Below, piece by piece: positions 7,236 through 7,809 of a stretch of 8,737 nt of DNA. Under the pieces are notes generated by a model. That model was not told the origin of the DNA. It worked only from the letters and a program-made list of their open reading frames with translations, and did no database searches. Numbering within the stretch: position 1 is the first letter of the stretch; each line of letters opens with the position of its first letter. Position numbers and translations under genes: made by a program. This stretch comes from Deltaproteobacteria bacterium RIFOXYA12_FULL_61_11 (GTDB lineage Bacteria > Bdellovibrionota_F > JAHFAK01 > YA12-FULL-61-11), in NCBI GenBank assembly GCA_001799195.1, contig MGSU01000169.1, positions 1-8,737 of the forward strand. Reading direction: 5' to 3'.

Positions 7236-7809
7236 ATGCATCGGCTCAATCCGGCACGGCCTTTGCCCTTCCTCCCTTCCTTCCTTCCTTCCTTCCTTCC
7301 TTCCTTCCTTCCCAATAAGTTATAAGTTTTCCTGCCTCGTACTCCTGCTCGGCCTGGGGTTCCTCGGGGCCTGTGAGCCGGTAGCCGAGCACGAATCCAC
7401 CAACGTCGCTACGACGGTGGGCGACCTCTCGACTTACGCCCTCGACGAGCTGCTCAAACTCCAGGAAGAAGGCACGATCACCCAAGAAGAACTCACCGCC
7501 GAGGTGACCCGGCGGCTGAAAGAGGATGAGGACTTCCTGGCCGAGGTCAAAGGGCCGAAAGGCGCCAAGGGCGACCCAGGCGAGGTCGGTGGTGCCGGAC
7601 CCCAGGGCGAGAAAGGAGAGCTCGGTGAGGCAGGCCCCGAAGGTCCTCAGGGTCCGGTTGGTGCGGACGGCTTGCCTGGTACCGATGGCCTCTCAGGTGA
7701 ACCCGGCCCTCAGGGTGAACCCGGGCAATCTCTGACCTGGCTGCTCCAGGGGGCAGAATCCATCACCTTGTACTCGACCCTGTGCACTCTGGCTGACCAG
7801 GAAAGGTGA
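7236..7809 (+). CDS. Collagen-like lipoprotein, apparently phase-variable and out of frame here
   Basis: The best start is ATG 7236 (GAGGT about 6 nt upstream), giving [12 protein letters not shown] and then LPSF repeats encoded by TTCC units. With the nine units present, this frame stops at 7325 after 29 residues. The next frame, open to the stop at 7809, encodes a signal peptide ([18 protein letters not shown], lipobox LGAC, Cys at 7372-7374), an acidic and possibly coiled-coil segment ([19 protein letters not shown] onwards), 20 uninterrupted Gly-X-Y triplets (7552-7731), and a short tail ending TLADQER. That frame has no ATG before the signal peptide, only TTGs at 7132 and 7174. Loss of one repeat unit, or gain of two, would join ATG 7236 to it, giving 189 or 193 aa. 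By analogy with bacterial collagen-like proteins it is probably a surface adhesin or stalk; no enzymatic role is visible. An assembly error in repeat number is the main alternative. Confidence 0.75.
7277..7312 (+). repeat. Tetranucleotide tract (TTCC)9
   Basis: Nine perfect TTCC units (36 bp), preceded by an imperfect pyrimidine run and followed by CCCAATAAG. Because the unit is not a multiple of three, each gain or loss of a unit changes the downstream reading frame. Position between a plausible start codon and a signal peptide is typical of contingency loci that switch by slipped-strand mispairing. The tract is purely pyrimidine on one strand and purine on the other. Confidence 0.97.
7552..7731 (+). 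repeat. Twenty collagen-like Gly-X-Y triplets
   Basis: The lipoprotein reading frame encodes 20 consecutive G-X-Y triplets beginning [12 protein letters not shown] and ending [13 protein letters not shown] positions are often Pro or Glu, and Y positions include Lys, Pro and Gln, as expected for a stable bacterial collagen triple helix without hydroxyproline. Codons vary between triplets, so the amino-acid repeat is maintained by selection rather than being a recent DNA duplication. A KGD tripeptide is present within the run. Confidence 0.93.

Follow-up and report, generated by a model that had tools for sequence, protein, structure and literature searches.

A candidate TTCC repeat switch in its OFF frame ahead of a headless collagen-like lipoprotein gene in the genome of an uncultivated bacterium

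In the genome of Deltaproteobacteria bacterium RIFOXYA12_FULL_61_11, nine TTCC units separate the very probable start codon of a collagen-like lipoprotein gene from its signal peptide and leave the two in different reading frames. We judge the chances to be about even that this is a true translational phase-variation (contingency) switch, turned ON and OFF by slipped-strand mispairing and caught here in the OFF state. The gene lies in an 8,737-nucleotide stretch of DNA (the window) that makes up the whole of contig C169 in a 4.64-Mb assembly of 342 contigs, 87% complete. On the minus strand, the window carries nuoH (partial), nuoG, nuoF, nuoE, nuoD, nuoC, nuoB, and nuoA, named by sequence inspection. 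A sequence-only reading of the window had described the lipoprotein gene as lying beside nuo, which is loose, since mazEF (6511-7076, minus strand) separates nuoA from the lipoprotein gene, which is divergent from both. A scan with NuoC retrieved two distant loci at 46 to 47% and was uninformative for the tract. Toxin-antitoxin pairs, mazEF and a hicAB-like pair (7926-8529), are found on either side of the lipoprotein gene. The contig ends within a dispersed repeat of ∼150 bases (8586-8737), of which copies or parts at 70 to 93% identity occur on dozens of other contigs, and this repeat probably broke the assembly there. The features of the locus are listed in Table 1.

Table 1. Features in and around the lipoprotein gene (window coordinates)
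Feature	Position	Strand	Evidence
MazF	6511-6834	-	Pfam PF02452
MazE	6828-7076	-	Pfam PF04014
Shine-Dalgarno GAGGTG and ATG 7236-7238 (inferred start codon)	7224-7238	+	same context in paralogues C287, C90, C5, and C139
(TTCC)9 tetranucleotide tract, exact limits	7277-7312	+	
Lipoprotein signal peptide, lipobox LGAC, Cys codon 7372-7374	7318-7374	+	lipobox also in paralogues
TAA closing the start-codon frame at nine units (29-aa product)	7323-7325	+	
N-terminal domain conserved in the paralogue family	7372-7584	+	alignment, own-genome profile matches, dN/dS 0.10 versus C287
Collagen-like stalk, ∼19 to 20 uninterrupted Gly-X-Y triplets	7552-7731	+	Pfam PF01391 (E 5e-9), triplet count
Unique tail past the end of homology (SLTWL), 21 codons, TGA 7807-7809; head domain missing	7745-7809	+	tblastn
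HicB (hicAB-like pair)	7926-8300	-	Pfam
HicA (hicAB-like pair)	8293-8529	-	Pfam score just under cut-off

A well-spaced Shine-Dalgarno sequence (TTCGAGGTGCCCCATG) lies 5' of ATG 7236, and in this genome GAGGTG precedes 0.4% of random ATGs, compared with 5% of called gene starts. The lipoprotein frame differs from the frame of this ATG; it is open back to 7105 and through to its TGA, and it holds no ATG 5' of the lipobox Cys, the candidates there being only ATA, TTG, ATC, and CTG codons that lack a Shine-Dalgarno sequence. These observations confirmed the elements on which the sequence-only reading was built, namely, an ATG at 7236 with a ribosome-binding site, the (TTCC)9 tract, a start frame ending at 7325, and a lipobox signal peptide in a different frame without an ATG before it. 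Tandem Repeats Finder reported period 4 and 11.5 copies over 7267-7312, as it counts an imperfect lead-in (CCTTCCTCC). We rewrote the tract in silico with 5 to 13 units: 5, 8, and 11 units joined the two frames and restored a protein of ∼190 aa, whereas 6, 7, 9, 10, 12, and 13 units left the start and lipoprotein frames unjoined. The expectation that eight or eleven units would join the start to the lipoprotein frame was thus borne out in silico, with five as an additional solution. The locus therefore has a non-triplet repeat early in its coding sequence, with the start codon on one side and the main open reading frame (ORF) on the other, and gain or loss of units toggles in silico between an early stop and the full ORF, as in translational phase-variation loci mediated by simple-sequence repeats. 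A scan covering sigma-70-type sites found no promoter-like site upstream of the gene on the plus strand, and the RNA around the start showed no unusual folding (z 0.53).

In the proposed switch, translation would start at ATG 7236, and slipped-strand mispairing would add or remove TTCC units in the tract that separates the start from the hydrophobic core of the signal peptide. Eight or eleven units would bring the ATG into the frame of the signal peptide, and the cell would make and export a small collagen-like stalk protein with a lipid anchor. With nine units, as in the assembly, or ten, a peptide of 28 to 29 aa would be produced and the gene would be OFF. On this reading, the unit number would vary in the population, the long ON signal peptide would work and export the protein, and the headless stalk would have a function. 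At eight units, the ON protein would have a leader of ∼44 residues before the Cys, longer than that of any paralogue, and the n-region of its signal peptide would exceed those of the paralogues by ∼25 residues. The case for the switch is made by the frames and the unit arithmetic, the unique tract, the paralogue-like start context, the conserved lipoprotein frame, and a layout shared with switches established by experiment; against it stand the single allele (one metagenome-assembled genome, count of nine), the loss of the head, the overlong ON n-region, and the negative outcome of the scan for sigma-70-type sites.

The OFF count itself could be an assembly error, the true number being eight or eleven and fixed and the gene simply ON. 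Repeats can stutter during amplification and assembly, and this assembly is fragmented; however, ordinary reads are long enough to span 36 bp, which usually makes the consensus count right, and a wrong count would itself point to heterogeneity among the reads. We consider such a miscount improbable.

To place the tract against its genomic background, repeats were surveyed in 2.14 Mb of stretches from the same genome, complemented by whole-genome pattern searches. The tetranucleotide runs in the 2.14 Mb comprised 36 of three units, none of four to eight, and one of nine, which is the window tract; a search of both strands of the whole 4.64 Mb found no second run of five TTCC units. A single run of nine with none of four to eight shows that the tract is not a product of chance, and its length beyond the background of the surveyed 2.14 Mb is a property of phase-variation loci. 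The window tract represents an expanded simple-sequence repeat, and the rest of the genome seems to hold no tetranucleotide tracts. A heptanucleotide repeat (CTGGTCC, four units) occurs on contig C20 (L055, 8888-8915) near the 5' end of a minus-strand open frame.

The product of the lipoprotein frame belongs to a family with five paralogues in the same genome, of which the four on contigs C287, C291, C90, and C5 are close and that on C139 is distant. They have in common a lipobox, a conserved domain of ∼60 residues (with ELLKLQE invariant in the alignment), and a collagen-like stalk. The lipobox of the window copy, LGFLGAC with its Cys, and the paralogue alignment identify it as a lipoprotein with predicted processing. 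Behind the Cys it has the N-terminal domain and then the Gly-X-Y stalk, and the family profile matched it at E 1.8e-40, a value obtained with the window copy itself as one of the four rows of the model; P0001 matched C287 at E 1e-44. After the stalk the heads differ, with Lcl_C on C287, an FGE-sulfatase-like domain on C90, and a beta-helix on C5. The copies on C287, C291, C90, and C5 (L018, L021, L022, and L023) form an in-genome lipoprotein family with interchangeable heads and an N-terminal domain outside Pfam. We had suspected a SHOCT domain in this conserved N-terminal region, but no Pfam family matched it. Profile scans of GTDB 220 contigs and viral contigs, as well as a comparison of P0001 with 98 genomes, yielded no member of the N-terminal family outside this genome, in a set where the phylum is represented by two genomes, this one and another from the same class. 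The remaining matches in these scans mostly covered the collagen stretch only.

In all five paralogues, an ordinary ATG stands 15 to 18 residues ahead of the lipobox Cys, and none has a repeat tract. On C287, C90, C5, and C139, this ATG is preceded by GAGGT(G) and a short spacer and sits directly before the signal peptide, and the matching context at ATG 7236 suggests that this codon is very probably the true, inherited start. By the same comparison, the tract is very probably a local expansion, within extra sequence lying after the start codon and ahead of the hydrophobic core. The conserved Shine-Dalgarno sequence and ATG of the paralogues also support the lipobox frame being a real gene. 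The gene could in principle be expressed constantly from a non-ATG start (ATA 7315 or TTG 7132/7174) or by reinitiation after the TAA, the tract being then part of a leader only. ATA 7315 would give a signal peptide of 19 residues, near the length in the paralogues, and the lipoprotein frame extends far enough upstream to include the TTG codons. Still, we hold this alternative to be improbable: no Shine-Dalgarno sequence precedes these ATA and TTG codons, the pyrimidine tract 5' of ATA 7315 is the very opposite of one, and the context typical of the family sits at ATG 7236.

Over 71 codons compared with C287, dN was 0.13 and dS was 1.30, giving a dN/dS of ∼0.10, and the comparison with C90 was similar. 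This ratio, together with the ∼20 uninterrupted Gly-X-Y triplets, argues that the lipoprotein frame was under purifying selection at the protein level for most of its history. In a neutral simulation, the 163-codon frame was still open in 49% of cases at 5% change and in 23% at 10%. Because simulated neutral change often leaves the frame open, the lack of stop codons excludes only old neutrality and not a recent loss.

In tblastn searches with the paralogues, homology to C287 and C90 ends abruptly at SLTWL, around position 7745; tblastn detected no head remnants downstream of 7809, and the genome contains no second copy of 7735-7935. The window copy therefore lacks the large C-terminal head that follows the stalk in the family and is a headless stalk. 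The hicAB-like pair lies just past the truncation point. Taken with the OFF count, the missing head gives serious weight to a rival reading, that of a dying copy. In it, a recently inactivated paralogue would have lost its head through a rearrangement, one that may be linked to the neighboring hicAB module; the tract would then have expanded or slipped unselected, remaining hypermutable, while its switching would be functionless and the gene would stay OFF. The sequence-only reading had not included this alternative to its switch. The sequence logic of that switch is sound, and the paralogues' Shine-Dalgarno sequence and ATG support its start codon, while the variation between cells that the sequence-only reading drew from it is a prediction.

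The OFF state and the truncation fit decay equally well. Decay is also in keeping with the unique tail beyond SLTWL, the toxin-antitoxin modules on both sides, and an open frame that the simulation showed to be compatible with recent neutrality. On the other hand, dN/dS was low over most of the divergence, and the Shine-Dalgarno sequence, ATG, lipobox, and collagen repeats are all intact. A lone nine-unit tract placed exactly between start and signal peptide, the position that the repeats of known switches occupy, would be at an odd site for an unselected microsatellite, and the surveyed 2.14 Mb is otherwise without such microsatellites. Moreover, since the heads of the paralogues are interchangeable, the lack of a head need not mean a dead gene. 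We thus regard a dying copy as a real but lesser possibility.

Besides the TTCC switch candidate, long homopolymer runs were examined in home-made gene calls on the 2.14 Mb, with categories that were not fixed in advance. Runs of at least 9 bases were found 8 times, versus 318 short ones, in 122 lipoprotein genes and 15 times, versus 3,024 short ones, in 1,464 other genes (Fisher P 0.0009), and the three runs that fall in the first 180 bases of their genes all belong to lipoprotein genes (P 0.0007). Pro-rich linkers behind the lipobox favor C runs and may explain part of the excess; for this reason, and because the gene calls were home-made, the enrichment is only a lead. The most striking case is a C12 tract on contig C68 (L103, 12495-12506, minus strand), which directly follows ATG AGT T, two codons after a lipoprotein ATG (MSSPPPLPRYSPLSVRLAGVGLLLVLACGQ), and is in the ON frame; we consider it a second candidate repeat switch in this genome. 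Other long homopolymer runs include those at L067 (11129-11138), L194, L186, and L153. We think it rather unlikely that hypermutable tracts switch a whole set of lipoproteins in this genome, with the TTCC switch alongside poly-C tracts concentrated in other lipoprotein genes, such as the C12 on C68. If true, repeats would drive surface variation in an uncultivated lineage whose phylum is represented by two genomes in the set searched and which is remote from the host-adapted pathogens in which the phenomenon is usually studied.

The mechanism proposed for the TTCC tract is already known, even for a collagen-like protein. In Streptococcus pyogenes, the collagen-like surface protein Scl2 (SclB) has its CAAAA/AACAA repeats immediately behind the start codon, and a wrong count leads to early termination, as in an OFF strain with 13 repeats (PMC3022705, PMC5005324). 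The claim in the sequence-only reading that such a switch was, as far as its author knew, undescribed for a collagen-like lipoprotein beside nuo is weakened by this precedent; what would be new is the combination of a tetranucleotide version, a lipid-anchored protein, and a remote uncultivated lineage. Both genes encode a collagen-like surface protein and carry short tandem repeats after the start codon and before the exported part. Scl2 nevertheless has pentanucleotide repeats, a GTG start, a Gram-positive cell-wall anchor, and a full-length product, whereas the window gene has a tetranucleotide tract, a lipid anchor, and no head; their N-terminal domains are unrelated, and variation in repeat number is proven for Scl2 and inferred here. 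The window gene, which lacks the pentanucleotide repeats and cell-wall anchor that define the Scl2 family, would work like Scl2 yet falls outside that family.

If the unit number varies, a deeply branching uncultivated lineage uses a slippage switch of the opa/Scl2 type for a surface lipoprotein, which would mean that such a device arises independently in organisms other than host-adapted pathogens. A fixed number would make the locus a clean illustration of the way in which a truncated gene with a microsatellite imitates a contingency locus in a single assembly. The opa genes of Neisseria carry CTCTT repeats in the sequence coding for the leader peptide (PMC3745409), and they resemble the window gene in having a pyrimidine repeat in the signal-peptide coding region, a translational frame switch (proposed for the window gene), and a multigene family of surface proteins. 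They differ in encoding outer-membrane beta-barrels and in having a pentamer, with the tract in every copy, whereas one of the six members of the family described here has a tract. In Haemophilus influenzae, tetranucleotide tracts change by units at ∼1e-4 per generation (PMC2651432); like the window gene, its contingency loci have such a tract within the 5' portion of a surface-related coding sequence, but they use other motifs (CAAT and others) at many loci per genome, in contrast to the single tetranucleotide tract in the surveyed part of this one.
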